Positions 1,162 to 24,795 of a stretch of DNA of 64,000 bases are shown here, one piece after another. Source of the DNA: Flavobacterium acetivorans (GTDB lineage: Bacteria > Bacteroidota > Bacteroidia > Flavobacteriales > Flavobacteriaceae); contig NZ_CP087132.1 in assembly GCF_020911885.1 (NCBI RefSeq), positions 2,914,001 through 2,978,000 on the forward strand, in the 5' to 3' direction. The notes beneath the pieces are model-generated. The model searched no databases. It worked only from the letters and a program-made list of their open reading frames with translations, and was not told the origin of the DNA. Positions within the stretch are counted from its first letter, which is position 1. Each line of letters starts with the position of its first letter. The position numbers and the translations under genes were made by a program.

Positions 1162-1193
1162 GTTATAAACAATTATAAAAAAAGAATATAGTC

Positions 1194-1976
1194 ATGAAAG
1201 TATTTATTAGTTGGTCTGGTGAAAGGAGCCGAAAAGTAGCAGAATTACTTGACGACTGGTTGCAATGTGTAATTCAAGCTGCAGAGCCATGGATGTCAAG
1301 TAAAGACATTGATAGAGGTGCATTATGGTTTACTGAAATTTCAGACCAGCTTGCTGGAACGGGAATTGGAATTGTTTGCTTGACAAAGGAAAACAAAGTT
1401 AAACCATGGATTTTATTTGAAAGCGGTGCTCTAGCAAAAGGAATTTCTTCTAATAGGGTTTGTACATTATTAATTGATTTAAAACCGACAGATGTTGAAA
1501 ACCCTCTAGCTCAATTTAACCATACAAAACCAAACAGAACAGGACTTTGGGAATTAGTTAGAACTATTAATGTTGCTCTAAAAGAAGAATCTTTAAAAGA
1601 AAGTATTTTAGAAAAAGTATTTGATACTTACTGGCCTCAATTTGAAGAGACTTTTAAACTTATTATTAAAGAAACCCCCGAAATGGAGGTAGAAGAAGTA
1701 AGAAGTGAAAATGACATACTGATTGAATTACTTTCTTCTGTTAGAGGAATGGATAGAAGAATGAGAATGGTTGAAAACAGAGAAATACATAATCTCAATA
1801 ACCGTGAATTGGATATAAACAGAAGACGTCCAAGAGCTTCGGAAGCTGAAAAAATGATTATAGAAATGCTTGATTCTAATATGTCACCAGAAATTGTTCA
1901 AGAAATTATGGATGACAGAAGAGTTCCATTAACTTTTATAAAAGAAACGATTGAAAATTATTTAAAGAATAAATAA
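1194..1976 (+). CDS. TIR-domain protein
   Basis: This 260-residue protein has an N-terminal TIR domain (about residues 1-140). It begins MKVFISWSG and carries the PWILFESGAL motif, whose glutamate (E76) sits where the NAD-cleaving glutamate of TIR enzymes lies. The remaining half is charged, likely helical, and matches no family I recognise. Bacterial TIR proteins commonly act in antiphage defence by consuming NAD or making signalling nucleotides, but no ThsA-like, Pycsar-like or Argonaute partner is adjacent. The gene is alone in a cassette that runs from GTTATAAACA at 1162 to GTTTAAC at 1979, behind leader B. A self-contained defence effector is likely but inferred. Confidence 0.75.
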   Translation: MKVFISWSGERSRKVAELLDDWLQCVIQAAEPWMSSKDIDRGALWFTEISDQLAGTGIGIVCLTKENKVKPWILFESGALAKGISSNRVCTLLIDLKPTDVENPLAQFNHTKPNRTGLWELVRTINVALKEESLKESILEKVFDTYWPQFEETFKLIIKETPEMEVEEVRSENDILIELLSSVRGMDRRMRMVENREIHNLNNRELDINRRRPRASEAEKMIIEMLDSNMSPEIVQEIMDDRRVPLTFIKETIENYLKNK

Positions 1977-1978
1977 CT

Positions 1979-2036
1979 GTTTAACAGCTAGAGTTTCGTT
2001 GGGCTTGAAAAGCCAACAATGAAACTCCTGTTGAAC
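1979..2036 (+). repeat. attC-like hairpin site 2
   Basis: Runs from GTTTAAC to GTTGAAC, which fit RYYYAAC and GTTRRRY. Stem arms are AACAG/CTGTT, GAGTTTC/GAAACTC and GTTGGGCTT/AAGCCAAC with CTA and AAT bulges. The left end partly complements the cassette start at 1162 (GTTATAAACA), with two bases missing. Confidence 0.65.
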
Positions 2037-2094
2037 GGAACCGGTCACTGGCAGGTACTATGGAGTTATCGTAAAGTTTTGAGAGAGAATGTCA

Positions 2095-2119
2095 AGAGGA
2101 TTTAGTGTCCTCTTTTTTT
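2095..2119 (+). terminator. Intrinsic terminator before cassette leader
   Basis: AGAGGATTTAGTGTCCTCT plus seven T. The fifth stem pair is A-T here and C-G at 933, a compensatory change. Confidence 0.7.
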
Positions 2120-2324
2120 GTGGAGTGTAATCAGTACTACTAACAATAAAACTACTGAAATACAAATCCATGTAAGTTCGAAAGGCCTGTAGTGAATAAA
2201 AAGCCTGTTTAATGATTTGTAGGAATAATTTAATACATTTGAAAGAATAACAAAACGCAACCCAATAGCGTGTATACATTCTTTTCTGGGAGGCTATGCG
2301 CTACTTTGTAGCGCATATATACAA
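2120..2324 (+). promoter_or_regulatory. Cassette leader type B with promoter and extra hairpin
   Basis: Type B leader with -7 box TACATTTG at 2234-2241. Close to the cassette start there is a strong extra hairpin, ATGCGCTAC / GTAGCGCAT, at 2295-2315, absent from the other B leaders. Confidence 0.55.
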
Positions 2325-2352
2325 GTTAGCACCAATTTGAAAAAAGAGAACA

Positions 2353-3342
2353 ATGACTACATTTAAAGGAGCAATGCGTTCATACGGAGCAGCAGTCCGA
2401 AGAATGGAACGAGAGCAGCAAAGACAAGCTCGTGAAGCGGCTAAAAGATTTAAAGAACAGCAAAAACTGCAAGAAATAGAGAATGCTCAACAAGCTGTAT
2501 CTGACTGGGAGAGTTATGTAGAAACAATTCAATCAGTTCATAAGAATTGTACAGACCCAATAGACTGGAAACAAATTGAAGAAACTGAAAAACCAAACGA
2601 ACCAATCCTTGAAACAAAAAATGAAGTTATCGCAAAAAATAAGTTAGCCAGCTTCAAGCCTTCTTTCTTTGACAAAGTTTTTGGTTCAACTCAAAAGAAA
2701 ATAAATCGATTATCGCAACAAGTTGAACAGGCTCAACAAAAAGACCAAAAAGAATTTGATATTGCCTATAAAAATTATTTGGACGAGTTGAACAATTGGA
2801 ATGAACTTCAAGAAATTAGTGCAGGAATCAAGAAAAAAGACCCTGAATCATATAAAAATGCACTTCAATATTTCGACCCATTTTCAGACATTGGAGAATT
2901 AGGAACTACAATAAGTTTCAACTTTGAAGAAAATCACATTGATATTGATTTACACGTAAACAGTTTAGATGTCATTCCCGATTATGAATTAAGACAAACT
3001 TCAACGGGAAAATTATCAAAAAAGAATATACCCAAAACACGATACAATGAGCTCTATCAAGACCATATTTGTAGTGCTTCAATGAGAATTGCAAGAGAAG
3101 TTTTTGCCTATTTACCAATTGACTATGCTCGAATTAATGCAATGGCTAAAATTGTTAATACAAAAACTGGACATTTAGAGGAGCAACCAATTTTATCTGT
3201 GATATTTCCACCTCAAACAATCGAGAGTTTAAACTTGGAAACAATTGACCCATCTGACAGCATGCAGAATTTTGTACACAATATGAATTTTAATAAAACA
3301 AAAGGTTTCTCAGTAATAGAAAAAGTAGAACTTCAAAAATAA
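2353..3342 (+). CDS. Hypothetical coiled-coil protein
   Basis: This 329-residue protein is of no family I recognise. The first 45 residues are rich in Arg, Glu and Gln (a run of MEREQQRQAREAAKRF type) and look like a long helix. A second Gln-rich helical stretch lies near residues 110-135. The last 150 residues look mixed alpha/beta, with no signal peptide or membrane segment, so it is probably cytoplasmic. It is the only gene of a cassette opening with GTTAGCACCA (2325) and closing with TGGTGCCAAT (3347). Confidence 0.7.
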   Translation: MTTFKGAMRSYGAAVRRMEREQQRQAREAAKRFKEQQKLQEIENAQQAVSDWESYVETIQSVHKNCTDPIDWKQIEETEKPNEPILETKNEVIAKNKLASFKPSFFDKVFGSTQKKINRLSQQVEQAQQKDQKEFDIAYKNYLDELNNWNELQEISAGIKKKDPESYKNALQYFDPFSDIGELGTTISFNFEENHIDIDLHVNSLDVIPDYELRQTSTGKLSKKNIPKTRYNELYQDHICSASMRIAREVFAYLPIDYARINAMAKIVNTKTGHLEEQPILSVIFPPQTIESLNLETIDPSDSMQNFVHNMNFNKTKGFSVIEKVELQK

Positions 3343-3346
3343 AAAC

Positions 3347-3411
3347 TGGTGCCAATAGCTAGAATTTCGTTGCGTGCGCAGCACGAACAATGGAGCATCT
3401 AACTGTTGTGA
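3347..3411 (+). repeat. attC-like hairpin site 3
   Basis: TGGTGCCAAT is complementary to the cassette start GTTAGCACCA at 2325 apart from two transitions. The left half, with GAATTTC and GTTGCGTGC, is intact. The right half is damaged (TGGAGCATCTAA) and ends CTGTTGTGA. No promoter leader separates it from the next gene. Confidence 0.55.
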
Positions 3412-4467: not shown

Positions 4468-4491
4468 GTTGGCAAACATTATAAAACGACC

Positions 4492-5049
4492 ATGAAAATC
4501 ACTAGAATACTTTTTATTGTTCTCCTGCTCTTTTCTACATTTCTATCATGCAGATCAAATAAAACGTTTCACAATCAAAATAGAGAATTCGGTGCGGTCG
4601 AAAATGAAAAGAAAATTGGCAAATGGAAATATTTTTATGAAAACGGGAACTTATATCAAATTGGTCGGTTTGCGAAGAATCAGGAAGCAGGTCTGTGGAA
4701 AATTTATCATGAAAATGGCAGTTTATCACAAGTTGGGCGATTCAAGAATGGGAAGCAAAATGGTAAATGGATTTTCTACTACAATGATGGAACATTACAA
4801 GGTAAAGGAAATTTAAATCAAGGAAAACTTATTGGAAAATGGGTTTGGTATCATGAAAATGGAACACTATACACGGAACGATCTTTTAAAAATGGAAAAC
4901 TTGTTGAAATTATAAGTTCATTTGACGGAAACGGAAATACAATTAATAAAGGAACATTTTTGAAGGGAACCGGTTCAATGTACATTCATAATATTGAGGG
5001 CAAAATAATCGACAGCGTTAACTATAAATTTGGGGAAATCTTAAAATAA
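4492..5049 (+). CDS. MORN-like repeat lipoprotein
   Basis: This protein has about 185 residues from the ATG at 4492. An upstream in-frame ATG at 4459 would fall inside the leader, and only the later one gives a clean signal sequence. The signal ends in FSTFLSC, a lipobox, so it is probably exported and lipid-anchored. The rest is tandem repeats of about 22 residues (KWKYFYENGNLYQIGRF type), the toxin-antitoxin YwqK / MORN-variant repeat. Such repeats mediate binding and have no known enzyme activity. A clear paralogue lies at 47100-47654, behind the same leader. Confidence 0.75.
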   Translation: MKITRILFIVLLLFSTFLSCRSNKTFHNQNREFGAVENEKKIGKWKYFYENGNLYQIGRFAKNQEAGLWKIYHENGSLSQVGRFKNGKQNGKWIFYYNDGTLQGKGNLNQGKLIGKWVWYHENGTLYTERSFKNGKLVEIISSFDGNGNTINKGTFLKGTGSMYIHNIEGKIIDSVNYKFGEILK

Positions 5050-5050
5050 C

Positions 5051-5118
5051 GTCTGCCAACAGCTAGAATTTCGTTGCCCCTCTAGCGCGAGCATCTTGCT
5101 CGTGCCCCTAAAGAAGTT
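5051..5118 (+). repeat. attC-like hairpin site 5
   Basis: GTCTGCCAAC complements the cassette start GTTGGCAAAC at 4468. Then AGCTAGAATTTCGTTG, followed by a divergent inner hairpin GCGCGAGCA / TGCTCGTGC. The usual 3' GAAATTCCTGTTGAAC is missing, replaced by a sequence containing GTTACGG. Confidence 0.55.
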
Positions 5119-6837: not shown

Positions 6838-6862
6838 AGTTAACTGTAATTTTATAAAAACT

Positions 6863-8242
6863 ATGCTTAATAAATTTCTGATAATTTTATCATTTCTTCC
6901 TTTTGTAAGTTTTTCACAATCAATTCAAAATACATATAACAATCTTCAAAAGCATTTAGAGATCAAAGATTTTACAACATCAGAAAAAATTGTTGACACT
7001 TTAATAAACTTAGAACCAAGCAACAATAATTGGATTATAAATAAGGCAGAAATAAATGCAAACCTTAATAATATAAAAAAAACGAATCAACTTCTAAGAC
7101 AAGCTTTTAATCAAGGTTATTATGTGTATGATAATTATTCTAATGAAAATGGAATTTTATATAAAAAACTTAATAAAACTAAAGAATATAATTCTTTGCT
7201 AAGTGATATAAAAACTTACTTGCATCAATTTAAGCAAAAAGAAAATACACAAACTATATCAGCAAAGGTTCCTGAAATAATGGAATGTTACGCGATTATG
7301 CTTTATTTAATTAATCCAAAGCACACACTAATTAATACAGCATTTCAGAATCATCCTTATTTCAAAAAAATAGACATTTATTTTTCAGAACATAAAAACA
7401 ATATCAATCTAATTGAATTGAGTAAACTTTATCCAGGAAAATTTGAGGATTGGATTGTCAATATGAAGGCACATCATAACTTAAGAAGTTTTTATTTTTA
7501 TGATAAATTTGATACATCAAAAATAGTTAGCTTACCTATTGAGGAAAATAAAATTGTAGCTAATTTAGTTTCTCAATTCGCAAAAGACACTAATTTTTTG
7601 AAGTTTTATGATGAAAATAAAGAATTCTATGATGCAATGAGTTCCATTATTCTAACGAACTATTCTTTTGGAAATGAAATTATTCCGTTTTTTAATAAAA
7701 ACTTCAATAAAAAAATTAACAAGTTCAATATCTTTTTCACTCCGATTTACAGTGGATGGCAACATGGACCAAGTGTCATAATTGATGATTACATCGAAAG
7801 TTTTTATTTCGGTGGAATCATGTATGTAGAAAGCAAAGAATTCTATTATCCCGATTCATACTTTTTATTCACTTTAATTTCTGAATTTGACCATGCTCCC
7901 ATTAATAAGATTTCGAGTAATTATAATGAAAAGTTCGAATCACTAAAAGAAAAATATTTGCTTTTATCGAACGGAAAAAATGTATCTTATTCGAAACTAA
8001 AAGATGCAACAAATGAATACTTAACTTGGGCGTTTGCTCTTCATTTTTTTTATGAAAATAAAGAATACGATTACTTACTATTAGAAAAAATGATAATTGA
8101 TGATATGGAGAAATACCGAGGTTTCATCCGTTTTGGCGAGTTTTGGAGTTTTTACAAAGAAGAATATATCAACTCCAAAAAATACCAAAATATAGATCAA
8201 TTTTATCCGCAAATTATATCTTGGTTAAGTAATCTAAAATAA
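6863..8242 (+). CDS. Secreted hypothetical protein
   Basis: This protein has 459 residues from the ATG at 6863. The in-frame ATG at 6800 lies inside leader B, and the later start gives a clean signal peptide (MLNKFLIILSFLPFVSFSQ). The first 100 mature residues look like one or two TPR-type helix pairs. The remaining part is rich in Tyr, Phe, Asn and Lys with no motif I know, including WQHGPSVIIDDYIESFYFGG. It is probably periplasmic or surface-exposed, of unknown function, and is closed by attC-like site 6. Confidence 0.65.
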   Translation: MLNKFLIILSFLPFVSFSQSIQNTYNNLQKHLEIKDFTTSEKIVDTLINLEPSNNNWIINKAEINANLNNIKKTNQLLRQAFNQGYYVYDNYSNENGILYKKLNKTKEYNSLLSDIKTYLHQFKQKENTQTISAKVPEIMECYAIMLYLINPKHTLINTAFQNHPYFKKIDIYFSEHKNNINLIELSKLYPGKFEDWIVNMKAHHNLRSFYFYDKFDTSKIVSLPIEENKIVANLVSQFAKDTNFLKFYDENKEFYDAMSSIILTNYSFGNEIIPFFNKNFNKKINKFNIFFTPIYSGWQHGPSVIIDDYIESFYFGGIMYVESKEFYYPDSYFLFTLISEFDHAPINKISSNYNEKFESLKEKYLLLSNGKNVSYSKLKDATNEYLTWAFALHFFYENKEYDYLLLEKMIIDDMEKYRGFIRFGEFWSFYKEEYINSKKYQNIDQFYPQIISWLSNLK

Positions 8243-8247
8243 AAACT

Positions 8248-8307
8248 TCCGCTAATAAGCAAGACTTCATGCGGTCTGCAAGACCCAGCAAGAAGTCGCT
8301 GTTGAAC
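8248..8307 (+). repeat. attC-like hairpin site 6, divergent arms
   Basis: CCGCTAATAAGC, then GACTTC/GAAGTC and GGTCT/AGACC arms, ending in CGCTGTTGAAC. The arms differ from the GAATTTC/GAAATTC and GTTGC types but stay paired, so base changes are compensated. The left end does not match a start I can find near 6838. Confidence 0.55.
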
Positions 8308-8782: not shown

Positions 8783-9796
8783 ATGCTTCAAAACCAATCC
8801 TTAATCCCTGATATAAAAGCAATTATTGCTACTGCTAAAGACAAAGCAATTAGAGCCGTTGACAATGAACGAACTTTAATGTATTGGAATATTGGTAAAC
8901 GTATTTTTGAAGAAGAACAGCAAGGTAAAGACAGAGCAGATTACGGAACCTACCTAATTAAATTTCTTGCTGAACAATTACAACCTGAATATGGCAGTGG
9001 TTTTTCGTATCGTCAATTAAATCAATATCGCCAGTTTTACCGCAGCTTTCCAATTGTGTCCGCACTGCGGACACAATTGAGTTGGACACAATACAAATCC
9101 CTTTTAGCGATTGACAATCAAGATAAAAGAGAGTTTTATATTGCCGAAAGCGTGAAAAACAATTGGACTTCAAGACAACTCGAACGCCAAATAAACAGCA
9201 GTTTATACGAGCGCCTTTTAATGAGTACTGATAAAGAAAGTGTATTGGCAGTAGCCAAAAACGAAAAAGTACCTTCAGACGCCAGAGAGATTATAAAAGA
9301 TCCAATGTATTTAGAATTTCTAGGTCTGAAGCGTGAAGCGGCCTACTATGAAAAAGATTTGGAGCAAGCCATTATAACCCATCTGCAAGACTTTTTATTA
9401 GAATTAGGGAACGGCTTTTCATTTGTGGCAAGACAAAAACAAATCCATATTGAAGGCGATGAATTTTTTGTAGACTTGGTTTTTTACAACCGTCTACTAC
9501 AATCTTTTGTAATCATCGAAATAAAAACGCACAAACTCACACATCAGGATATCGGACAATTACAGATGTATGTAAACTATTATGACAGAGTAGAAAAACT
9601 ATCATATGAAAATCCAACTATCGGCATTTTGCTTTGTGCTAGCAAAAACGGCGGAGTAGTGAAATTCACCTTGCCGGAAAACGAAAAAAATATAGTGGCT
9701 AGTCAATACGAATTATACCTGCCAACAGAGAAGCAATTACTGGAAGAAGTAAACAAAGAGTTGGAAAACTTTCGAGAAGATAAATCAAATAATTAA
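8783..9796 (+). CDS. YhcG/DUF1016 family PDDEXK nuclease
   Basis: A full-length, 337-residue member. The N-terminal DUF1016 helical domain (about 1-165) includes YGTYLIKFLAEQL and FSYRQLNQYRQFY. The C-terminal PDDEXK domain (about 175-320) has FFVDLVFY, IIEIKTHK and GQLQMYV. Family members are predicted DNA endonucleases often found near type I restriction systems; none is nearby. The fragment at 1-427 is a homologue. The gene abuts an IS91-like relic upstream and runs straight into the inter-cassette repeat downstream with no typical attC-like site. Confidence 0.85.
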   Translation: MLQNQSLIPDIKAIIATAKDKAIRAVDNERTLMYWNIGKRIFEEEQQGKDRADYGTYLIKFLAEQLQPEYGSGFSYRQLNQYRQFYRSFPIVSALRTQLSWTQYKSLLAIDNQDKREFYIAESVKNNWTSRQLERQINSSLYERLLMSTDKESVLAVAKNEKVPSDAREIIKDPMYLEFLGLKREAAYYEKDLEQAIITHLQDFLLELGNGFSFVARQKQIHIEGDEFFVDLVFYNRLLQSFVIIEIKTHKLTHQDIGQLQMYVNYYDRVEKLSYENPTIGILLCASKNGGVVKFTLPENEKNIVASQYELYLPTEKQLLEEVNKELENFREDKSNN

Positions 9797-10306: not shown

Positions 10307-10395
10307 GTTGTGCTACATTCTATGTCAAAATTGCGAAAAATGAACTTTTTATCCAAAGTCAACTGTTTTAAGTAAATAATTTGTTAATTTGCGGT

Positions 10396-11178: not shown

Positions 11179-11647
11179 ATCAGTTCTGTTAGACACAAGT
11201 TTCTTTATTAGATTTTTAAACGATAACGACCCATTATTTAAAAATGCTGATGCGTATTTTCGTTATTTCATTAAAGAAGAAATAACTATGATGATTTCAA
11301 CAATATCAATTGCAGAATATTGTGTCGGTGGAGATATTCATGAATTACCTTTGAGAAATTTACAAATTATTCCTTTTAATTTAGACCATTCAAAGAAAAC
11401 AGGAGAATTTGCTAGAATCATTTTTAAAAACAAAGGAAAATTAAAACTGAATGAAAGAAATATAATTCCAAACGACACCAAACTATTTTCTCAAGCTGAT
11501 TGTGAAAAAACAGTCGAATATTATCTATCTTCAGACAGTGAAAGTTTAAAAATTTACAATCTACTAAAAGAAGAAGTAAATCCTAAATTCACTTTTATTG
11601 ATTTAAAGGTTCCTCATCACGAAGTTTTTGGTTTACTTGATTTGTAA
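11168..11647 (+). CDS. PIN-domain protein
   Basis: This 159-residue protein opens with VLLDTSFFIRFLN, carries SIAEY near residue 50 and an acidic NDTKLFSQAD segment near residue 105. That order of acidic residues fits a PIN/VapC-like RNase fold that binds metal through conserved aspartates and glutamate. VapC toxins cut tRNA or rRNA; here the target is unknown. The gene overlaps the 260-residue partner, and the cassette closes 16 bases later with attC-like site 7. Confidence 0.7.
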   Translation: MIHKSVLLDTSFFIRFLNDNDPLFKNADAYFRYFIKEEITMMISTISIAEYCVGGDIHELPLRNLQIIPFNLDHSKKTGEFARIIFKNKGKLKLNERNIIPNDTKLFSQADCEKTVEYYLSSDSESLKIYNLLKEEVNPKFTFIDLKVPHHEVFGLLDL

Positions 11648-14300: not shown

Positions 14301-14363
14301 CGAACGCACAACAGCTAAGATTTCGTTGCGTGCGCAGCACGAACAATAAAATTCCTGTTGAAC
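14301..14363 (+). repeat. attC-like hairpin site 9
   Basis: CGAACGCACAAC complements the cassette start GTTGTGCGTC at 13151 with one mismatch. It continues into AGCTAAGATTTCGTTGCGTG and ends AATTCCTGTTGAAC. Confidence 0.65.
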
Positions 14364-14882: not shown

Positions 14883-14919
14883 GTTAGCAGCAAACTTTAC
14901 CTAAACTACTGAAGACAAA

Positions 14920-15921
14920 CTACTTGATCTTGACAATGACTTTTCCTTTAGCACGACCACTTGAAACGTAGTACATTGCTTCGTTCATTTGCTCAAACGA
15001 AAATACTTTGTCAACGACAGGACGAATGACACCTGTTTCAATCAATTTTCCAATTTCTGACAACTGTCTTCCATTTGCTTGCATAAACAGAAACGAATAA
15101 TCAACATTGAGTTTTTTCGCTTGTTTCCTGACCTTGTAGCTTAAAAAGAAAATCGCTGTTTTCATAAACCACGACAAACCAATTTCTTTTGCAAAAGCAG
15201 TATCAGGTGGACCTGAAATAGAAATGACTTTTCCACCTGGCTTCAAAATTCGCAACGACTTTTCAAGAGTTTTTTCGTCTTGACTGTTCAACACCAAATC
15301 GTAATCTTTCAAAATGGTTTCAAAATCTTGCGTTTTGTAATCAATCACAACATCAGCTCCAAGGCTTTTTACTAACTCAAAATTATCGGCACTTGTAGTT
15401 GTGGCAACAGCGGCGCCCAAATGTTTCGCCATCTGGATGGCAATCGTTCCGACACCGCCTGAACCTGCTTGTATAAAAACTTTCTGACCTTTTTTAAGAT
15501 TTGCTTTTTCAACAAACGCTTGCCAAACCGTTAATGCAGCCAACGGAAAAGAAGCTGCTTCTTCCATTGAAATAGTTGCGGGTTTCAAGGCAACATCGTT
15601 TTCATTGACAGCAATGTATTCGGCAAATGTGCCGATACGAAAATCGGCAGGACGAGCAAAAACGTCATCGCTCATTTTGAAACGACTGACTTTTGAGCCA
15701 ACGCCAATAACCGTTCCCGCAACATCGTGTCCCAAAATCAATGGAAATTTGTAAGGCAACAACAACTTAAATTCGCCACTTTTTAGTTTGGCATCTAACT
15801 GATTGATACTTGCCGAATTGACTTGAATTAAAACTTCGTTTTCTTTGGCAACAGGCTTTGGAACTTCTGTTAGTTGAAGTTTGTCTTCCTTCCTGTAACG
15901 GTTTATTGTGTATGCTTTCAT
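14920..15921 (-). CDS. NADP-dependent quinone oxidoreductase-like (MDR)
   Basis: This 333-residue medium-chain dehydrogenase/reductase has an N-terminal GroES-like domain (LGHDVAGTVIGVG) and a Rossmann domain with the nucleotide loop AGSGGVGTIAIQMAK. The zinc-binding residues of alcohol dehydrogenases are missing, which points to the zinc-free quinone or enone reductases. It probably reduces a reactive electrophile with NADPH. It lies 11 bases after an SDR gene on the same strand and shares its promoter, next to a divergent HxlR-type regulator. All three sit in one cassette, 14883-17219. Confidence 0.8.
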   Translation of the reverse strand: MKAYTINRYRKEDKLQLTEVPKPVAKENEVLIQVNSASINQLDAKLKSGEFKLLLPYKFPLILGHDVAGTVIGVGSKVSRFKMSDDVFARPADFRIGTFAEYIAVNENDVALKPATISMEEAASFPLAALTVWQAFVEKANLKKGQKVFIQAGSGGVGTIAIQMAKHLGAAVATTTSADNFELVKSLGADVVIDYKTQDFETILKDYDLVLNSQDEKTLEKSLRILKPGGKVISISGPPDTAFAKEIGLSWFMKTAIFFLSYKVRKQAKKLNVDYSFLFMQANGRQLSEIGKLIETGVIRPVVDKVFSFEQMNEAMYYVSSGRAKGKVIVKIK

Positions 15922-15932
15922 CTTGTTTTTTT

Positions 15933-16697
15933 TTATTGTAAATATTTTTCTGCTTTCTTTGGATTAACCAAGCTGAAAGCCAATTTCGGAAAAATACGAT
16001 TAAGGTAATAGAAAGTACCTGTATAACCCATACGAATTGTGTATTGGTCTTTTTGCAATCCTGCAATCAATCCTTTTATCAATTTTTCGGGGCTCATTTT
16101 TTTTACTTTTCGGTGTGCTATAAGTTCAGTTTCTACTGCAGGAGGCAACAACTCAAATACTTTTACATTACTGTTAGCAATTCGCAAATGCTCACGAAGC
16201 GACTTTGTGTAAAACGCCAAAGCAGTTTTTGTTGCCGAATAAGTTGCTTCAAGCAATGACGGAACATAACTTAAAACGGAAGTTGTGTTGATAATCGCAC
16301 TTTCTTTTTTTGATTTCAGCATATCCAAAAAAAGATTGTTCAGACGAATAACTGCCAAGTAATTTATGTTCATTTCATATTCCGCCCCTTCAAAATGTTT
16401 GTCGCTTGCAACACTTAAATTTGACGGCATTACGCCAACACCTGCATTGTTGTATAGAATATCAATTCCGCCCAAACTCTTAACTTGATTGTAAAGCGAA
16501 ATCGCATCTTCTTCATTCGCAACATCGCTTTTTATCGCAATTACATTGGGATACAGTTTTTTTGCCGAATCTAATTTGTCTTGACTTCTGCCTGTTATGA
16601 TAACTTTTGCACCAATTTCCAAGAATTGTTTTGTGGCTTCAAGTCCAATACCAGCACTACCACCAGTAATCAATATTGTTTTGTTTCTTAAGTCCAT
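15933..16697 (-). CDS. Short-chain dehydrogenase/reductase
   Basis: This 254-residue classical SDR has TGGSAGIGLE at the N terminus (cofactor binding), NNAGVG, and the catalytic YSATK. The substrate is not known; the sequence resembles DltE-type oxidoreductases. It is the first gene of the minus-strand pair controlled by the HxlR region. Pairing of an SDR, a quinone reductase and an HxlR regulator is common for electrophile or quinone stress responses. Confidence 0.8.
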   Translation of the reverse strand: MDLRNKTILITGGSAGIGLEATKQFLEIGAKVIITGRSQDKLDSAKKLYPNVIAIKSDVANEEDAISLYNQVKSLGGIDILYNNAGVGVMPSNLSVASDKHFEGAEYEMNINYLAVIRLNNLFLDMLKSKKESAIINTTSVLSYVPSLLEATYSATKTALAFYTKSLREHLRIANSNVKVFELLPPAVETELIAHRKVKKMSPEKLIKGLIAGLQKDQYTIRMGYTGTFYYLNRIFPKLAFSLVNPKKAEKYLQ

Positions 16698-16734
16698 ATT
16701 TTGCTTTGAGTTTATTTATTTATTTGTAAATTTG

Positions 16735-16783
16735 CTTGCGATTTGCAAGTACAAAGATATCAAACAACTTTTAATTTGCAAGT
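16735..16783. promoter_or_regulatory. Candidate HxlR operator in divergent promoter
   Basis: Inverted repeat CTTGC-GATTT-GCAAG at 16735-16749, plus ATTTGCAAGT repeated directly at 16741-16750 and 16774-16783, 33 bp (three helical turns) apart. It lies between the SDR and HxlR starts, so it could control both. Confidence 0.5.
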
Positions 16784-16801
16784 GGTTTTTAAGAATAAAT
16801 T

Positions 16802-17218
16802 ATGAAAAACACTAAAAAAAGGTCAGATTGTCCCGTTAGTTCTTCCCTTGACATTTGGGGAGACAAGTGGTCGTTGCTAATTGTGAGAGATTTAATGTTC
16901 GCAAAACAATGCACTTATGGTGACTTTTTGAAATCAGACGAAAAAATTGCGACCAATATTTTGGCTTCACGACTTCAAACGCTTGAAGAAAACAAAATCA
17001 TTACAAAATCAGACCACCCAGAAAGTAAAGCGAAAGTTTTATACAAACTGACACAAAAAGGAATTGATTTATTGCCTTTAATGATTGAAATAAATTTGTG
17101 GGCGGAAAAGTATTATGACTTACCAGCCGACAGAAAAGCAATGTTGAAAGAAGTGAAAAAGGACAAAGAAAAATTTATTAAAACAGCAACCAAAGACTTG
17201 AAAAAAAGCAGCAGCTAA
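16802..17218 (+). CDS. HxlR-family transcriptional regulator
   Basis: This 138-residue winged-helix protein has CPVSSSLDIWGDKWSLLIVRD at its N terminus, the HxlR signature with the conserved redox- or electrophile-sensing cysteine position, and the recognition region ILASRLQTLEENKII. HxlR proteins respond to quinones, aldehydes or thiol stress and usually repress a divergent reductase. Here the SDR and quinone reductase are divergent. The gene ends within a few bases of attC-like site 10. Confidence 0.85.
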   Translation: MKNTKKRSDCPVSSSLDIWGDKWSLLIVRDLMFAKQCTYGDFLKSDEKIATNILASRLQTLEENKIITKSDHPESKAKVLYKLTQKGIDLLPLMIEINLWAEKYYDLPADRKAMLKEVKKDKEKFIKTATKDLKKSSS

Positions 17219-17309
17219 TAGCTAGAATTTCGTTGCGTGCGCAGCACGAACACCCGAGTCCCGATAATTATCGGGACGAACGGACGTAGTAATGAAATTC
17301 CTGTTGAAC
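17212..17309 (+). repeat. attC-like site 10 with enlarged loop
   Basis: CAGCTAAT (related to the start GTTAGCAGC at 14883), GAATTTC/GAAATTC and GTTGCGTGC/GCACGAAC arms, ending in GTTGAAC. About 40 bases are inserted after GCACGAAC, including the hairpin TCCCGATAATTATCGGGA. The loop expansion recalls the variable terminal structure of attC sites. Confidence 0.6.
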
Positions 17310-17416
17310 GGAACCGGAGGTTGTGAATGGTGAGAAGTGAGTTGTGAATGGTGAGTGGAATTTTCGGTTTACCCCCTTCCCTAAAGGGAGCCGAAAATTT
17401 AAGACGTGATTTCTTT

Positions 17417-17692
17417 TAAGCCGCCCTTATATTTTTAGACCAGAAAATCCGGGCAAGGATTTGAGCGTTGGCCGGCGGGAGTGACCCCCGAGTCGAGTGT
17501 GAAACACGAGCGCCTGGGGTCACGATAGGGAAATAGGCCTGAGATTTTCAGGACAAAAATATTCAGGCTTGATTTTTTGTTTCTTTTGCATCAAGGCAAA
17601 AGAAAAAGATTGGCTTCATTCCCTACTCGTTCTATTATTTATATCAAGCCATCCCTTATGGGTTTTACGATAAATGGGTTATAAGAATGTCA
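17417..17692. repeat. Long inter-cassette repeat, copy 3
   Basis: Same GC-rich hairpins as copy 1, but shortened after the GGGGTC arm; it continues to the CATCCCTTATGGG tail. Confidence 0.55.
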
Positions 17693-17717: not shown

Positions 17718-17885
17718 ATGGTCTATAATCAGGTATTACTAGTGGTGAAACTACTGAAATGCGGATCTATGTAAGTACGAAAAGTCTGCGGTGAATAAAA
17801 AGTCCATTTGATGCTTTGTAGGAATAAAGTAATATGTTTTATTTTAAATAAAATATGTATCTTGTCATACCTATATACAAGTGAA
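17718..17885 (+). promoter_or_regulatory. Cassette leader type B, altered promoter
   Basis: Leader B whose -7 box has decayed to TATGTTTT at about 17833. It ends in CCTATATACAAGTG; a CCTCTTATAATTAGAG word at 17903-17920 looks like the remnant of an attC-like left end. Confidence 0.45.
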
Positions 17886-17956: not shown

Positions 17957-18769
17957 ATGGCAAAAATAAATGTACAAGACAGAGAAATTACTATTATTGC
18001 GTTTGAAGAACGAGATTATATTTCGCTTACGGATATGGCAAATGCCAAAGAAGGCGCAAGCCGAGCAGCTGATGTAATAAAAAATTGGATTAGAACCCGT
18101 TATACACTTGAATTTTTGGGGACTTGGGAGCAAATCAACAATCTCAATTTTAAAGTGGTGGAATTTGACCACTTTAAAATGCAGGCAGGTTTACCAAGTT
18201 TTGTATTGAGCGTTTCGGATTGGATTGAGAAAACAAATGCCATTGGAATAATCGTAAGAAAAGGTAAATATGGAGGAACGTATGCCCATAAAGATATTGC
18301 CTTTGAATTTGGTTCCGCTATAAGCGTTCCGTTTAAACTGTATTTGATAACCGAATTTCAACGACTAAAGGAAGAAGAACAAAGGCAATTAGGTTGGACA
18401 GCAAAACGAGAATTAGCTAAACTCAATTATCACATTCATACGGATGCCATTAAGCACAATTTGATACCGCAAGAACTTTCATCTGCACAGACATCAGTCA
18501 TTTATGCAAATGAAGCGGACGTACTGAATGTTGCACTATTTGGAATTACAGCCAAGCAATGGCGAGAAGTAAATCCCGATTTGAAAGGTAATATCCGTGA
18601 CTATGCGACAATCAACGAACTGATTTGTTTGTCAAATATGGAAAATCTAAACGCTGTTTTCATCAACGAAAAAATCCCACAAAAAGAACGATTGATAAAA
18701 CTGAATAAAATTGCAATCCAACAAATGGGTATATTGCAGGACGTTGAAAAACGGAAACTATTAAAATAA
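17957..18769 (+). CDS. KilA-N domain protein, copy 1
   Basis: This 270-residue protein has a KilA-N domain (DYISLTDMANAK, then KGKYGGTYAHKDIAFEF near residue 110) and a conserved C-terminal region containing ANEADVLNVALFG. KilA-N is a DNA-binding fold common in phages, large DNA viruses and bacterial mobile elements; the role here is unknown. A paralogue of the same length and layout lies at 20105-20920. The gene is followed by attC-like site 11, 130 bases after the stop. Confidence 0.8.
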   Translation: MAKINVQDREITIIAFEERDYISLTDMANAKEGASRAADVIKNWIRTRYTLEFLGTWEQINNLNFKVVEFDHFKMQAGLPSFVLSVSDWIEKTNAIGIIVRKGKYGGTYAHKDIAFEFGSAISVPFKLYLITEFQRLKEEEQRQLGWTAKRELAKLNYHIHTDAIKHNLIPQELSSAQTSVIYANEADVLNVALFGITAKQWREVNPDLKGNIRDYATINELICLSNMENLNAVFINEKIPQKERLIKLNKIAIQQMGILQDVEKRKLLK

Positions 18770-18898: not shown

Positions 18899-18954
18899 TC
18901 TCATAACAGTTAGAGTTGCGTGCGCAGTACGAAAAATGACAGCTGCTGTTGAAG
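18899..18954 (+). repeat. attC-like hairpin site 11
   Basis: TCTCATAACAGTTAGAG, a shortened GTTGCGTGCGCAGTACGA stem, ending in GCTGCTGTTGAAG. No complementary cassette start was found upstream of the KilA-N gene. Confidence 0.5.
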
Positions 18955-19189: not shown

Positions 19190-19217
19190 GTTATAAGCAA
19201 TCATAAAAAAAGAAGAA

Positions 19218-19721
19218 ATGAATTGGGATACATTTTATTATTTAATTTTTGTTCCTATCATCATAATAAATACAATTATTTATTTCGCAAAAAATAATAA
19301 AAATCCAAATAAAAAAAATATAGTTCTTAAAAACTATGATTTTACGCAAAAATCTGAAGAGGATAAATTTGTTATTGAATCAGCATTCAACAAAAACCTT
19401 GAAAAATTAATGCAAATAACACCGCAAACAATTTATCATTTCAGAAAAATTAATGATGCCGAAGAAAAAGAACTCAAACTTGAATTCTTTTTTTACACTA
19501 ACAAGGCAAAAAAAGCAGAAAAGCTTGTAGCAGAATTAAAAAAAATAAATTATACTGTAAAACAAAGTGTTAGTGAGAAAGATAATAAGATATTTATTAT
19601 TACTGGCTGGACAACAAAAATAAAAATGAGTGATGAAATTGTAAAAAAATGGACAAACCAAATGTGCATACTTGGTTATAATTTTGACTGTGAATTTGAT
19701 TTTTTAGAAACTACTAAATAA
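19218..19721 (+). CDS. Membrane-anchored RraB-like protein
   Basis: This 167-residue protein has one N-terminal membrane segment (about residues 5-23) and a soluble C-terminal domain. Its LEFFFYTNKAKKAEKL, FIITGWTTKIKMSDE and NFDCEFDFLE motifs match the ribonuclease E inhibitor RraB fold (DUF1260). RraB of enterobacteria binds RNase E. Bacteroidota RNases differ, so the partner is unknown, and the membrane anchor is not part of classical RraB. It is the only gene of a cassette with perfect 9-base terminal complementarity. Confidence 0.65.
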   Translation: MNWDTFYYLIFVPIIIINTIIYFAKNNKNPNKKNIVLKNYDFTQKSEEDKFVIESAFNKNLEKLMQITPQTIYHFRKINDAEEKELKLEFFFYTNKAKKAEKLVAELKKINYTVKQSVSEKDNKIFIITGWTTKIKMSDEIVKKWTNQMCILGYNFDCEFDFLETTK

Positions 19722-19754
19722 AGTACAAAATAACAAAGAATGTAGAAAACGGCA

Positions 19755-19898
19755 GCTTATAACAGTTAGACTTTCGTTGCGTGTGCAGCACTAACACCCG
19801 AGTCCCGATAGAGTTATCGGGACGAACGGACGTAGTAATGAAATGAAATTCACGGCCTCCAAAACAAAATAAAAACCAGCCGTAAAACTGTGTTGAAT
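19755..19898 (+). repeat. attC-like site 12 with very long loop
   Basis: GCTTATAAC is the exact complement of the cassette start GTTATAAGC at 19190. After the usual CTTTCGTTGCGTG arm the loop holds a CCCGATAGAGTTATCGGG hairpin and an ACGGC/GCCGT segment like that in site 4. It ends in GTGTTGAAT. At about 144 bases it is the longest site here. Confidence 0.6.
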
Positions 19899-20104: not shown

Positions 20105-20920
20105 ATGGCTAAGAATAAAAAAATAAATGTACAGGGAAAAGAAATTACAATAATTCAGTCTAACAGTCTGGATTTTATTTCTATAACTGATATGTTAAAA
20201 GCAAAAGATGGTGACTTCTTCATTTCTGATTGGTTAAGAAACAGAAATACTATTGAATATTTGGGAATTTGGGAACGAATCCATAATCCGGATTTTAATT
20301 ATGGCGAATTTGCCATAATTAAAAGTCAGGCAGGATTAAACAACTATAAACTCAGCGTGAAAGAATGGGTTGAAAAAACAAATGCTATTGGTATCAAAGC
20401 TACATCAGGCAGATATGGTGGAACTTATGCCCATCAGGATATTGCTTTTGAATTTGGAATGTGGATTAGTGCCGAATTTAAAATTTATTTAGTTAAAGAA
20501 TTCCAACGTCTTAAAGAAGAAGAAAGTAATACCAAAAAACTCGAATGGAATTTGCAAAGAACCATTTCCAAAATTAATTATAGAATTCATACCGACGCCA
20601 TTAAAGAAAACTTGATTCCAGAAACAATTGCACCGGCTCAGAGAAATTTTGTCTATGCTGACGAAGCCGATGTCTTGAATACTGCTTTGTTTGGAAAAAC
20701 GGCTAAGCAATGGCGTGAAGTAAATCCATTACAAAAAGGAAATATCAGAGACGAAGCTTCCATCGAACAATTGGTGGTTCTGTCTAATCTCGAAAGCATC
20801 AATGCCATGCTAATTCAACAAGGGATTAGCCAACCCGAAAGATTACAAAAATTAAATTCCCTTGCTATTAGCCAAATGAAATCATTATTCAGCAGCAATT
20901 CTTTAAACAAACTCAAGTAA
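20105..20920 (+). CDS. KilA-N domain protein, copy 2
   Basis: This 271-residue paralogue of the protein at 17957-18769 is collinear throughout: LDFISITDMLKAKDG, GRYGGTYAHQDIAFEF and YADEADVLNTALFGKTAKQW correspond to the same segments in copy 1. Its probable role is DNA binding, with unknown target. Unlike copy 1 it has no attC-like hairpin behind it and only part of leader C in front. It may have lost its ends or never been a cassette. Confidence 0.8.
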   Translation: MAKNKKINVQGKEITIIQSNSLDFISITDMLKAKDGDFFISDWLRNRNTIEYLGIWERIHNPDFNYGEFAIIKSQAGLNNYKLSVKEWVEKTNAIGIKATSGRYGGTYAHQDIAFEFGMWISAEFKIYLVKEFQRLKEEESNTKKLEWNLQRTISKINYRIHTDAIKENLIPETIAPAQRNFVYADEADVLNTALFGKTAKQWREVNPLQKGNIRDEASIEQLVVLSNLESINAMLIQQGISQPERLQKLNSLAISQMKSLFSSNSLNKLK

Positions 20921-21095: not shown

Positions 21096-21128
21096 GTTAG
21101 CGGATACCAGTTGAAAAATAAAATACTT

Positions 21129-21779
21129 ATGAAAGAAGAATTTATAACATTTGAAAAATTTAATGACCAAAATTCAGCAAAAGAATTAGGCGAATTAATA
21201 GCTGAACAAAACATTGAATTTTTGTTAGAAGACAATTCTTTGAGTTTCGACCCAACTTTTGCTAACAATGGTTTTGGAAAAGAATATTGCATAAAACTCA
21301 AAAAAAGGGATTTTGAAAAAGCCAACAAAATTTTAACTGATAAAGCTGTTAAAGAAATTAATGATATTGATAAAGATTATTATTTGTTGAGTTTTTCTGA
21401 CTACGAATTAATTGACGTAGTTTCAAAGAGCGATGAATGGAATAAATTTGACGTTTCACTTGCTAAAAAATTGCTTAAAGAAAGAGGCAAAGAAATTACA
21501 TCCGAAGAAATCGAAAAAATTAAACAACAACGAATTGTAGAATTATCAAAACCTGAAGAAGGCCAAAAAAATTATATAATTTTAGGATATATAACTGCAT
21601 TTTTGGGCGGATTATTGGGGATTTTTATCGGTTGGCATTTACTAACTTATAAAAAAACGTTACCAAATGGAAACCGAATTTATGCTTATTCAGAAAATGA
21701 CAGAAAACAGGGAAATCGAATTTTAATAATTGGCGCAATATTTCTTGTATTTTGGCTGACAATTAAAATTCTGAATTAA
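21129..21779 (+). CDS. DUF2007-type membrane protein
   Basis: About 216 residues from the ATG at 21129. The N-terminal part (FEKFNDQNSAKELGELIAE, then YCIKLKKRDFEKANKIL) resembles the DUF2007 'putative signal transducing' fold, a small PII-like domain. Two membrane segments follow near residues 150-170 and 195-213. Function is unknown. It is the single gene of a cassette with the best-defined ends in the window: GTTAGCGGATACC at 21096 and GGCATCCGCTAAC at 21792. Confidence 0.65.
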   Translation: MKEEFITFEKFNDQNSAKELGELIAEQNIEFLLEDNSLSFDPTFANNGFGKEYCIKLKKRDFEKANKILTDKAVKEINDIDKDYYLLSFSDYELIDVVSKSDEWNKFDVSLAKKLLKERGKEITSEEIEKIKQQRIVELSKPEEGQKNYIILGYITAFLGGLLGIFIGWHLLTYKKTLPNGNRIYAYSENDRKQGNRILIIGAIFLVFWLTIKILN

Positions 21780-21791
21780 ACCGCATATTCT

Positions 21792-21867
21792 GGCATCCGC
21801 TAACAGCTAAGCTTCGTTGCGTGCGAAGCACGAACGATGATCCCGATAATTATCGGGAGTGTTGAAC
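21792..21867 (+). repeat. attC-like hairpin site 13
   Basis: GGCATCCGCTAAC pairs with GTTAGCGGATACC at 21096 over 12 of 13 bases. Then AGCTAAGCTTCGTTGCGTGC, a TCCCGATAATTATCGGGA hairpin as loop, and GTTGAAC at 21861. Confidence 0.7.
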
Positions 21868-21954: not shown

Positions 21955-22403
21955 ACTTTTAAGGCGCCCTTATAGTTGCCAGACTAGAAAATCCGGGTAA
22001 GGATTTGAGCGTTGGCCGGCGGGAGTGCCCCCCGAGTCGAGTGTGAAACACGAGCGGCTGGGGTCGCGATAGGAAAACCGAAACGCAGTGAGGTTCATCG
22101 AACACCAATAACAATAAGGGATTAGTGAGATAAATACGTCCGAGATTTTCGGCCCCGATGGCGATCGGGAGCAACTATTCAGGCTTGAAATCGAAGATTC
22201 ACGAAATCAAAAATTTAAATATTAACCTGAGTATTTTTTTGTTACTTTTTTCATCAAGACAAATCAAAGATTCAGTGAGCACCGCTAAAAAAACAAAAAT
22301 TAAGCGAGCTAAAAAAGTAAAAGATTGGAATCATCCCCTACTCGTTCTATTATATCAAACCATCCCTTATGGGTTTTACGATAAATGAGTAAGAAGAATT
22401 TCA
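21955..22403. repeat. Long inter-cassette repeat, copy 4
   Basis: Includes the full multi-hairpin unit and a longer 3' part with internal insertions around 22150-22330. It ends in CATCCCTTATGGG. Confidence 0.6.
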
Positions 22404-22430
22404 AGAGGCCATTGCGCCTCTTTTTTTTGA
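22404..22430 (+). terminator. Intrinsic terminator
   Basis: AGAGGCCATTGCGCCTCT plus eight T. Confidence 0.7.
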
Positions 22431-22707
22431 AGTAGTTTTTCAGTTGGTTTTAATGTGTTTTTCCTTCACTTTCGGGTATAAGTACCCTTACCCATAAAGT
22501 TAGTTTTCACAGGGATTGGTGTTTTGGCTACTGCCAAGATACCAAGCAGGCGGACCGTGCTGGTCGAAAACTGCTATTCGGCCTAAATCATTTTGTTAAT
22601 TTAAATTATGTATTCACTTATATTGCAAATAATTATTTACTAAATTTGAAAAAACATCATTTACTCTAGAAGAGTAATAACCAAATTAGTACTAATTTTA
22701 AAGCTCA
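22431..22707. other. Spacer before kinase gene
   Basis: The first 55 bases repeat those at 11806-11862. The rest shows no leader A, B or C and no gene. The kinase gene may therefore not be a cassette, or may have lost its leader. Confidence 0.4.
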
Positions 22708-23796
22708 ATGAAAATAAAAGAAAATCCAAATTCAGATACAGCATATCATTTTGACAATTTTTTTAATATCTCAGCTGATCTGATTTGTATTGCCGGATTT
22801 GATGGTTATTTTAAGAGAATAAATGCGGCTGTATCGCAATTATTAGGGTATTCAGATGAAGAATTGTATGCTAGTCCTATAAATACATTCGTTTATGCTC
22901 CAGATCTTAAAATCACAATCGAAACGAGAGAACAAGTATATAAAAATAAACCGCTGTTAAATTTTGAAAACAGATACTTAACTAAAACGGGAGAGATTGT
23001 ATGGTTATCTTGGACATCGATGCCTGTTGAAGATGAAAAATTAGTATATGCAATTGCTAAAAATATTACCCATAAAAAACAAATTGAAGATGAGCGAAAT
23101 ATACTCCTAGCAAATCTAACCAAAATAAATAAAGACCTCAAGCACTTATCTTATACGACTTCGCATGACTTAAAATCACCTGTAAATAATTTGCTATCCA
23201 TATTTAATCTTATTGATAGTACTAAAATTAATGATAAAGAAACACTTGAATTTTTAGCTGTACTAAAAACAACGACAGAGCGTTTAAGTCAAACTTTAAA
23301 AAAATCTGTAGCCGAATTAATTCACAAAGACGAGTTAAATGCTTCTATTGAACCATTAAGTTTAAACGAGAATTTAAATGAAGTAGTACTTTCTATAAAC
23401 TCCTTAATAATAAATTCAAGAATTAAAATCACCATTGATTTTGACGTAGTTCCTACTATTAATTTCAATAAGGAATACTTGAAAAGTATATTCTTGAACT
23501 TAATTACAAATTCAATTAAATATTCAAAACCAAACACTTACCCTTCTATTTCTATTACTTCTAAACGAACAAATGGAAAAAATCAATTAATCTATTCTGA
23601 TAATGGACTGGGTTTTGATATGGATAATGTGCGAGATAAAATATTTGGTCTACACCAAAAGTTTAACAATCATATTGATAGCAGTGGAGTAGGACTTTAT
23701 TTAATTTACAATCACATCACTAATTTAGGTGGTCGTATTGAAGTGAAAAGTCAAATAAATGAGGGTGCAGAATTCACAATAACTTTTAAGGACTAA
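22708..23796 (+). CDS. PAS-domain sensor histidine kinase (soluble)
   Basis: This 362-residue protein has one PAS domain (about 15-130, with GFDGYFKRINAAVSQLLGY) and a HisKA/HATPase core: the phosphoacceptor histidine in YTTSHDLKSPVNN, the N box NLITNSIKYSKP, and the GVGLYLIYNHI glycine box. No membrane segment is seen, so it senses a cytoplasmic signal. No response regulator is adjacent. It lies within the array but without recognisable cassette ends. Confidence 0.8.
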   Translation: MKIKENPNSDTAYHFDNFFNISADLICIAGFDGYFKRINAAVSQLLGYSDEELYASPINTFVYAPDLKITIETREQVYKNKPLLNFENRYLTKTGEIVWLSWTSMPVEDEKLVYAIAKNITHKKQIEDERNILLANLTKINKDLKHLSYTTSHDLKSPVNNLLSIFNLIDSTKINDKETLEFLAVLKTTTERLSQTLKKSVAELIHKDELNASIEPLSLNENLNEVVLSINSLIINSRIKITIDFDVVPTINFNKEYLKSIFLNLITNSIKYSKPNTYPSISITSKRTNGKNQLIYSDNGLGFDMDNVRDKIFGLHQKFNNHIDSSGVGLYLIYNHITNLGGRIEVKSQINEGAEFTITFKD

Positions 23797-24027
23797 AAAA
23801 CAAAACAACTTCAAAAAAAGTTGATTAAATTCCCGCTGATACTAATTATTATGTATTGAATTAATTGTGAAAGTGCAACTGATTTGTATCTAAAAAAACG
23901 GTGGTGCGGATTTTCAATCCGTGCCCGCAAACAAATTCAATTAAGAAAATAATCCTAATGATACGGAATTGTATTCCCTCGATTCACCGCGGCGGAAAAC
24001 GGAACCGGAGGTAGTCTTGAAAGAGAA
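23797..24027. other. Spacer with small hairpin
   Basis: Holds a GCGGATT/AATCCGT hairpin near 23906-23924, and around 23995 a GGAACCGGAG word like the one that follows intact attC-like sites. No gene seen. Confidence 0.4.
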
Positions 24028-24107
24028 ATAATTGTAGTTTAAATCAGCTATATTTACTTTATAATTAACAAAAATCAGTTCGTTTAGAGTTTTTTAGACG
24101 TACTGAC
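24028..24107 (+). promoter_or_regulatory. Cassette leader type C
   Basis: AATTGTAGTTTAAATCAGC, TATATTTAC, ATCAGTTCGTTTAGAG and GACGTACTGAC before the cassette start at 24108. Confidence 0.55.
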
Positions 24108-24200
24108 GTTATGGGCATTTTTACCGAAACCAAGGAAATAACGCATTTTGAGTAATTTCTATCCTAAAAAAATACTCTAAAAGAAGAAATTTAAACAAAA

Positions 24201-24719
24201 ATGAGAAAATATATATTCTATTCATTCATTACAATAACTATAATATTTATTCTGATTCCATTCGTTTTCCTTGAAATATATGAACTAGGTTATTCTATGA
24301 AAAAAGTGTTTGATAACATAATGATATTTGGAATTTTATCATTTATCATTTCATTATTTTTTCACGAAAGTATTTTTCGCCCTACAGAAGCAAAAAACAA
24401 AATATTCTATATTTTTATAAAAGGATTTAAAATATTATTTGGGACATTTTTTTCATTTATATTTATATGTGGAATAATTTCTGGTTTGTTGTTAAGCATT
24501 AACTCATACGTTGGAAAGCAAGAAATTATAAATTTAAAAAGTAAAATTATAAGTACAAATGAAACAACCTCAAAAAACGGGTTAAAGCATTATTACATTA
24601 CTGTCGAAATCCCAAACGAAAAACGTGATGTAGAACTTAAAGTTAAACGACAATATCTGAAAGGAGAAACGTTTGAAGGACAGATATACAAAGGAAGTCT
24701 AAAAATGTACTATAAATAA
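24201..24719 (+). CDS. Hypothetical membrane protein
   Basis: This 172-residue protein has three predicted membrane segments in the first 110 residues (near 8-27, 43-58 and 78-100) and a soluble C-terminal tail of about 65 residues (KNGLKHYYITVEIPNEKRDV). No family is recognised. It is the only gene of the last cassette of the array, with ends GTTATGGGCATTTTT (24108) and AAAAACTGCCCATAAT (24718); its stop codon TAA overlaps the start of the site. Confidence 0.65.
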   Translation: MRKYIFYSFITITIIFILIPFVFLEIYELGYSMKKVFDNIMIFGILSFIISLFFHESIFRPTEAKNKIFYIFIKGFKILFGTFFSFIFICGIISGLLLSINSYVGKQEIINLKSKIISTNETTSKNGLKHYYITVEIPNEKRDVELKVKRQYLKGETFEGQIYKGSLKMYYK

Positions 24720-24795
24720 AAACTGCCCATAATGAGTAGACGGCTCCGCCAGAACCTGACGGAGTGAGCCTCTCTCGCATCCCCTACTCGTTCTA
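24718..24795 (+). repeat. attC-like site 14, second hairpin family
   Basis: AAAAACTGCCCATAAT pairs with the start GTTATGGGCATTTTT at 24108 over 14 positions. The inner stem is GGCTCCGCCAG / CTGACGGAGTGAGCC, and GAGTAG/CTACTC closes it before GTT. It is the same type as site 8. Confidence 0.65.

Follow-up and report, generated by a model that had tools for sequence, protein, structure and literature searches.

In this work we analyzed a window of 64,000 nucleotides (nt) of the 3.56 Mb chromosome of Flavobacterium acetivorans (NZ_CP087132.1, positions 2,914,001–2,978,000), in which a series of modules begin with GTT plus a word complementary to the closing bases of the same module. These private ends are the R' and R'' boxes of integron cassettes. 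The window is probably a part, decayed and without an integrase, of a chromosomal cassette array of the integron type, whose attC sites were invaded by a transposon of the IS91 family (element E) and whose fused units were then multiplied. The observations behind this reading are the pairing of the module ends, the covariation of the folded sites, the association of integrase, attI and attC, the ends and targets of E and the remnants found in the leaders in front of the cassettes. The cassettes of the window are as follows:

1162–1985, plus strand: cassette with weak private ends; TIR-domain open reading frame (ORF) at 1194–1976
2325–3356, plus strand: cassette with private ends; ORF at 2353–3342
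4468–5060, plus strand: cassette with private ends; MORN-repeat ORF
10307–11669, plus strand: cassette with private ends; ORFs at 10381–11178 and 11168–11647
12308–12930, plus strand: cassette with private ends; common hairpin absent on the right side
13151–14312, plus strand: cassette with private ends; Reg_prop ORF
14883–17219, plus strand: cassette with weak private ends; three ORFs (one plus, two minus)
19190–19763, plus strand: cassette with private ends; RraB-like ORF
21096–21804, plus strand: cassette with private ends, from the pairing test
24108–24733, plus strand: cassette with private ends; common hairpin absent on the right side

A sequence-only reading of the window had proposed that the ends of these ten modules match within each module and not between neighbors. 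When all start–end pairings were permuted for eleven modules (these ten and 6839–8256), the sum of the own scores, 223.5, was reached in none of 100,000 permutations (mean 129.9, maximum 202.5); it should be mentioned that some ends in this test were chosen by eye. In a stricter test of eight modules the starts were taken from the leader context only and the ends from the hairpin context only, complementarity being ignored. The own sum was 154.5 against a permuted mean of 89.1; three of 100,000 permutations equaled it, roughly as often as the identity permutation is expected to turn up, and none exceeded it. Thus, the ends are complementary beyond shuffled pairings, and no other pairing equals the true one. 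Modules 1162–1985 and 14883–17219 are indeed weaker, as proposed, since a different GTT is preferred when the partner is picked freely by complementarity. The modules ending at 12930 and 24733 stayed outside the stricter test because the usual hairpin is absent there; in the eleven-module test the pairings of their own starts and ends reach 25.5 and 27.5. Both of these ends are followed by a common repeat of ~130 nt (12931–13064 and 24734–24869) that opens with a CTCCGCCAG..CTGACGGAG hairpin and is possibly the end of a second element. Rfam searches at gathering thresholds gave no matches.

The identity of the ends follows from loci in related bacteria. Some 14 kb ahead of the window, and directly in front of a cassette start, the chromosome carries 107 residues from the C-terminus of a tyrosine recombinase. 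With this piece as a query, relatives turned up at E ≤ 1e-20 in 177 of the 299 family genomes sampled, and at this threshold the F. acetivorans genome contained no match except the piece itself. A site-specific tyrosine recombinase beside cassettes is thus present in relatives, including locus L092 of the same genus, and is reduced to a fragment in the genome of the window.

In twelve loci around these relatives a short AT-rich stretch, in which a promoter-like TAnnTTTG motif was recognized by eye, comes after the recombinase gene on its strand; in many of these loci cassettes with matching private ends and repeats of ~120 nt come next. Most of the 23 listed neighboring pairs match, some of the mismatches being due to repeats omitted from the list. 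The repeats, which correspond to attC, are mostly ~120 nt long (some ~60 or ~180–200 nt). In an alignment of 26 of them 96.6% of cells are paired, with 67 double-changed cells against 17.2 in shuffled alignments and almost no one-sided changes. An A·C mismatch is invariant in all 28 rows checked, and G–T pairs are nearly absent, which suggests that the predicted fold is adopted by DNA and not by RNA. The sites of the relatives therefore combine matched R'' and R' boxes in the cassette with an imperfect folded hairpin; in the window the boxes alone were recognized.

To get a quantitative picture, we applied a covariance model of attC (R1) to the best 80 of 247 loci selected by integrase alignment (L106–L185), which include Tamlana, Winogradskyella, Polaribacter, Algibacter, Muricauda, Tenacibaculum and Flavobacterium. 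In total, 205 sites were found at E ≤ 0.01: 202 on the integrase strand downstream of the gene (327 kb), one on this strand upstream (727 kb), and one on each side on the opposite strand. Fifty of the 56 loci with at least 1 kb of sequence downstream of the integrase contained a site. When seven loci situated on the same contigs as the training loci were removed, the counts were 179 downstream against one upstream, in 43 of 49 loci. The remaining 24 contigs end less than 1 kb past the integrase (three of them with a site), which fits arrays that break assemblies, so that the system is probably undercounted.

If the repeats are attC, a GTT near the integrase gene, namely at attI, should be the match for the R'' of the cassette that comes first. 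Within a search span of up to 420 nt the best match scored at least 16 in 49 of 53 loci, the exceptions being L114, L121, L148 and L181, and all 49 matches fall 91–145 nt past the end of the integrase match, most commonly in the context TATATAAACAA|GTT. The mean score was 18.7 with the own R'' and 10.8 with the R'' of other loci. An attI joined to the first cassette at G|TT thus adjoins the integrase in 49 of 53 loci, and the earlier assignment of the ends to R' and R'' stands on these integrase-linked loci. A motif search of 36 sources revealed no empty attI, an extended hairpin preceding most of the listed sites. That the private ends are unrelated to integrons, and serve for instance in messenger RNA pairing or as transposon target words, is highly improbable: an integrase is missing from the window and recombination is deduced rather than seen, yet the same words act as R' and R'' in those 49 loci, and left partners picked for 54 ends by complementarity alone fall, where the match is good, on attI-like ends or on the ends of an attC repeat of ~140 nt.

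The recombinase of these loci differs from the classical integron integrases. The arginine, lysine, HxxR, histidine and tyrosine residues characteristic of the tyrosine recombinase family are kept in the alignment. The alignment to 2a3v breaks where 2a3v has 67 residues and the query 24, and the spacing from the lysine motif to HxLRH is 65–66 residues in 24 relatives against 107 in IntI1; most relatives carry an extra N-terminal stretch of ~95 residues. What is missing is the IntI-specific patch, held to be essential for IntI. The recombinase scores 193 and 197 bits with TIGR02249 (cut-off 265) and 204 and 208 with NF040815 (cut-off 220); no recombinase of the F. acetivorans genome passes the TIGR02249 cut-off. 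The NCBI name of NF040815 includes "integron integrase", so that the likeness has not passed unnoticed. The search for a tyrosine recombinase with the IntI patch, suggested from the sequence alone, was thus successful as regards the recombinase, recovered as a fragment, and failed as regards the patch. Judged by its genomic context, this patchless recombinase behaves like an integron integrase while falling outside the group that the patch defines. A small recombinase tree had long branches and gave it no firm position; its rows included L241, which is not a recombinase, and, under the name of the E enzyme, the intact integrase of L092. A relative with 51.6% identity over 74% of the length, annotated as an integron integrase, is located on a Chryseobacterium plasmid (L237; NZ_CP041688.1), upstream of a group II intron maturase; its presence on a plasmid indicates that the system may be mobile.

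Most of the 54 ends are followed on the right by a hairpin of 55 nt closed by GTTGAAC. In the hairpin alignment 95.8% of cells are paired, with 50 double-changed cells against 14.7 in shuffled alignments. Comparison of arrays revealed that the hairpin together with GTTGAACGG is the left end of E, an element of 2.3–2.4 kb whose left end is a hairpin of ~50 nt closed by GTTGAAC and whose right end is GTTCAAC. E encodes an IS91-family transposase and a tyrosine recombinase (Y-recombinase), both antisense to the array. The transposase scores 437 bits with NF033538 and contains the Y2_Tnp and Zn_Tnp_IS91 domains, as expected of a Y2-type IS91 enzyme. The Y-recombinase, seen beside the transposase for example at L039:10070–11062, was considered as the integron integrase and set aside, because it sits inside E and antisense to the array. 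Short copies of 322–337 nt with both ends (L218, L219, L220, L222, L225, L230, L091) resemble non-autonomous miniature elements.

Homologous copies of E have an R'' on the left flank, and the attC bodies to their right differ from copy to copy. Every left flank listed closes with AAC or AAT, and one of them with GGAAC, in agreement with the GAAC-like target that IS91 elements have beside their origin end; the script sought AAC/AAT, so that other targets would be missed. The right end itself closes with AAC, which makes a 3-bp target duplication indistinguishable there. A strong attC stem follows 25 of the 56 right ends with at least 200 nt available, against 12 of 1098 random AAC sites in the same loci. 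Insertion of E takes place at AAC, in many cases directly inside the R'' of attC. With up to one mismatch its right end was found in 39 of 299 sampled genomes of the genus, and the two intact copies in the F. acetivorans genome are 99.36% identical and reside in different attC, which implies a recent movement of E. The array of L092 begins with an intact integrase and contains four copies of E, each inserted between R'' and the body of attC, the cassette ends still matching.

It could be supposed that E is itself a gene cassette moved by the integrase, GTTGAAC and GTTCAAC being its R' and R'' and the following attC its own. The two words are exact complements, GTTGAAC occupies the place expected of an R', ~50 nt in from the left end, and three of the four copies in L092 precede near-identical attC bodies. 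A cassette would retain its attC, however, and the 57 listed right ends, which were collected by their constant end, lead into widely differing DNA, although the hairpin ahead of them does not vary. We therefore consider this alternative unlikely; the two readings are not exclusive, as E, once inserted by transposition, may in addition be moved in the manner of a cassette.

With the ends of E defined, the constant GTTGAAC side of the window modules is explained: it is the hairpin end of E inserted after R'' and not an attC of the cassette. Most window cassettes adjoin a left end of E, and a covariance model of the hairpin (R2) found ten hairpins in the window at E ≤ 0.1. The E segments of the window and the integrase remnants of its leaders are as follows:

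444–499, plus strand: E left end (1–57); sequence match, R2 hairpin at 437–493
964–1078, plus strand: integrase 3' end remnant and beginning of the attI/promoter stretch
1986–2119, plus strand: E left end (1–135), broken before an integrase remnant; R2 and sequence match
2144–2233, plus strand: integrase 3' end remnant
3350–3403, plus strand: E hairpin end; R2, 45.3 bits
4146–4201, plus strand: E hairpin end; R2, 41.8 bits
6660–6744, plus strand: integrase 3' end remnant
8250–8307, plus strand: E hairpin end, divergent; R2, 33.8 bits
10124–10223, plus strand: integrase 3' end remnant and beginning of the attI/promoter stretch
11670–11860, plus strand: E left end (1–191); 96.3% identity to an intact copy in the same genome
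14313–14447, plus strand: E left end (1–135), break identical to that at 2119; R2 and sequence match
14470–14572, plus strand: integrase 3' end remnant
17213–17316, plus strand: E hairpin end with an extra palindrome within the hairpin; R2, E piece at 17291–17316
17745–17820, plus strand: integrase 3' end remnant
18901–18954, plus strand: E hairpin end, divergent; R2, 31.2 bits
21798–21867, plus strand: E hairpin end with an extra palindrome and GTTGAAC closure; R2
22395–22580, plus strand: inner E piece (102–288) from the antisense IS91 transposase gene, 3' end; 93.6% identity

The plain attC-only array envisaged from the sequence alone is not what the window contains. R1 detected no attC site in it at E ≤ 0.5, an absence that is not absolute, as the model scores attC of this genus low (~23–45 bits). 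A version of the attC-only array in which the 55-nt hairpin with GTTGAAC is the short attC of each cassette draws on the strong covariation of the hairpin, on the agreement of GTTGAAC with the GTTRRRY box, and on the correct position of R'', which would give the cassette circle a matched site. The same hairpin, however, opens copies of E outside attC (L216, L227), and the varied attC bodies behind the right end of E assign the hairpin to E and not to the cassette; this version is accordingly improbable.

The leaders of 300–900 bp, which had been a puzzle for the sequence-only reading, are largely resolved as transposon-end DNA, and six of them hold the last codons of an integrase gene. Several leaders end in attI-like fashion (ACTA|GTT, ACAA|GTT). 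At 2119 and 14447 E halts at the same position, 135, ~25 nt ahead of the integrase remnant, and this shared break indicates that one fused unit was apparently copied. A repeat family of ~186 nt is also present in leaders (602–787, 11875–12060, 17421–17606 and 21965–22150), for which no match to E or to the integrase was found. The idea that the leader is the loop of a large attC of 300–900 nt was rejected, since by eye the leader ends do not pair with the bases past R'' and E explains the constant side.

Taken together, these data can be arranged in the following scheme. GTT plus word and word plus AAC or AAT would be R' and R'', which pair in the folded strand of the cassette recombination site; in relatives the integrase would join the folded attC to attI as in integrons, to judge from their anatomy. 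In the lineage of the window the integrase is reduced to a fragment and E presumably invaded attC at R''. The fused units (E end, integrase remnant, attI/promoter stretch and cassette) were then probably multiplied whole. The likeliest route is one-ended transposition of the rolling-circle kind, beginning at the hairpin end of E and terminating at the AAC of a downstream R''. Since R'' and the right end of E both close with AAC, a unit bounded by the E hairpin and the following R'' could be mobile on its own, and units moving in this way would yield the observed pattern. Passages of a study of IS801 and its IS91 relatives describe a start at one end, possible termination at a target-like sequence and occasional carriage of neighboring DNA (PMC3189936). 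Recombination, its performance by a patchless integrase and the mode of module multiplication are what we infer here. Ordinary homologous recombination or tandem duplication between repeats, with no one-ended transposition, is nearly as plausible as not for the multiplication step: long repeats are common to the leaders, and in the same passages most genomic fragments of IS801 are judged to be reorganizations (PMC3189936). The modules hold unrelated genes, though, and duplication alone is insufficient because each unit needs a new cassette.

Several observations weigh against the decayed, E-invaded integron array. Module 6839–8256 remained unpaired, with an own score of 13.5 that lies under several foreign pairings. 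A search of the window for integrase remnants yielded none in the leaders ending with ACTGACG|TT. The window has left ends of E and no right end, the right ends of this genome being present only at the two intact copies. Elsewhere, 31 of the 56 right ends lack a strong attC stem, some of them being situated in other DNA (e.g., L216 and L227). The intact integrase relatives lack the IntI-specific patch. Finally, no cassette was found in two contexts among the matches listed when loci, rather than strains, were compared.

As regards the cargo, three of the nine window proteins submitted to PADLOC match candidate defence families: TIR-TM (1194–1976), PDC-S02 (8783–9796) and PDC-S22 (17957–18769); a tenth protein, from L041, matches TIR-type families too. 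The PDC-S02 and PDC-S22 proteins, a YhcG/DUF1016-type nuclease and a KilA-N protein, respectively, lie between end-verified modules and not inside them, and a paralogue of the latter is encoded at 20105–20920. As these families are candidates for anti-phage defence, the cargo may consist of useful genes. In the otherwise plus-strand module 14883–17219 two oxidoreductase-like ORFs occupy 14920–16697 on the minus strand, adjoined by a plus-strand ORF at 16802–17218.

In a sample across the phylum R1 revealed sites at E ≤ 1e-6 in 94 of 296 genomes and none in F. acetivorans itself (11 candidates per genome scored, strict filters). Where the IntI patch serves to define integrons, surveys report a near absence here, in contrast to these 94 genomes with attC-like sites; the relevant passages on IntegronFinder 2.0 mention a single complete integron for Bacteroidetes proper, that of Salinibacter ruber (PMC9024848). 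Searches of the open-licence PubMed Central literature listed no account of integrons in Flavobacteriaceae or of IS91 elements that target attC, subscription journals and preprints lying outside this scope. If a patchless enzyme recombines folded attC, the requirement of the patch for single-strand recombination needs revising, and an element aiming at attC would illustrate the ways in which cassette arrays fall apart, become frozen and acquire new promoters. A wider hypothesis, which we put forward tentatively and regard as rather more probably wrong than right, is that Bacteroidota possess a large integron lineage of their own with a patchless Xer-like recombinase, and that a rolling-circle transposon whose ends mimic R', R'' and the hairpin inserts directly inside the R'' of attC, leaves the host cassette a substitute hairpin, becomes a cassette with a stolen attC and then carries attI–promoter–cassette units genome-wide.

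Compared with known systems, the loci share with integrons a recombinase gene with an adjoining attI, same-strand cassettes with private R'/R'' words, a folded attC with a conserved mismatch and arrays of small unrelated genes; they differ in a recombinase that lacks the IntI patch, falls under the TIGR02249 cut-off and in most relatives is extended at the N-terminus. With clusters of attC sites lacking integron integrases (CALIN) the window shares cassettes that have no intact integrase nearby, and differs in that its attC bodies were not found and each cassette adjoins a transposon end. Group IIC-attC introns and IS1111-attC elements also aim their insertion at attC; E shares this targeting with them, whereas the enzymes, the ends and the insertion point are different. 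E resembles IS91, IS801 and ISCR elements in its Y2 transposase with a zinc domain, GAAC-like target, truncated copies and possible carriage of neighbors, and is distinguished from them by the Y-recombinase, the ~50-nt hairpin end and its frequent place inside attC at R''. For attI pieces in arrays the nearest analogue, as far as the relevant passages of PMC12901181 describe it, is the Delta-attI-type cassettes of class 1 and 2 integrons, in which pieces of attI also stand between cassettes; in the window the attI piece follows transposon and integrase remnants and recurs in many modules of one array.

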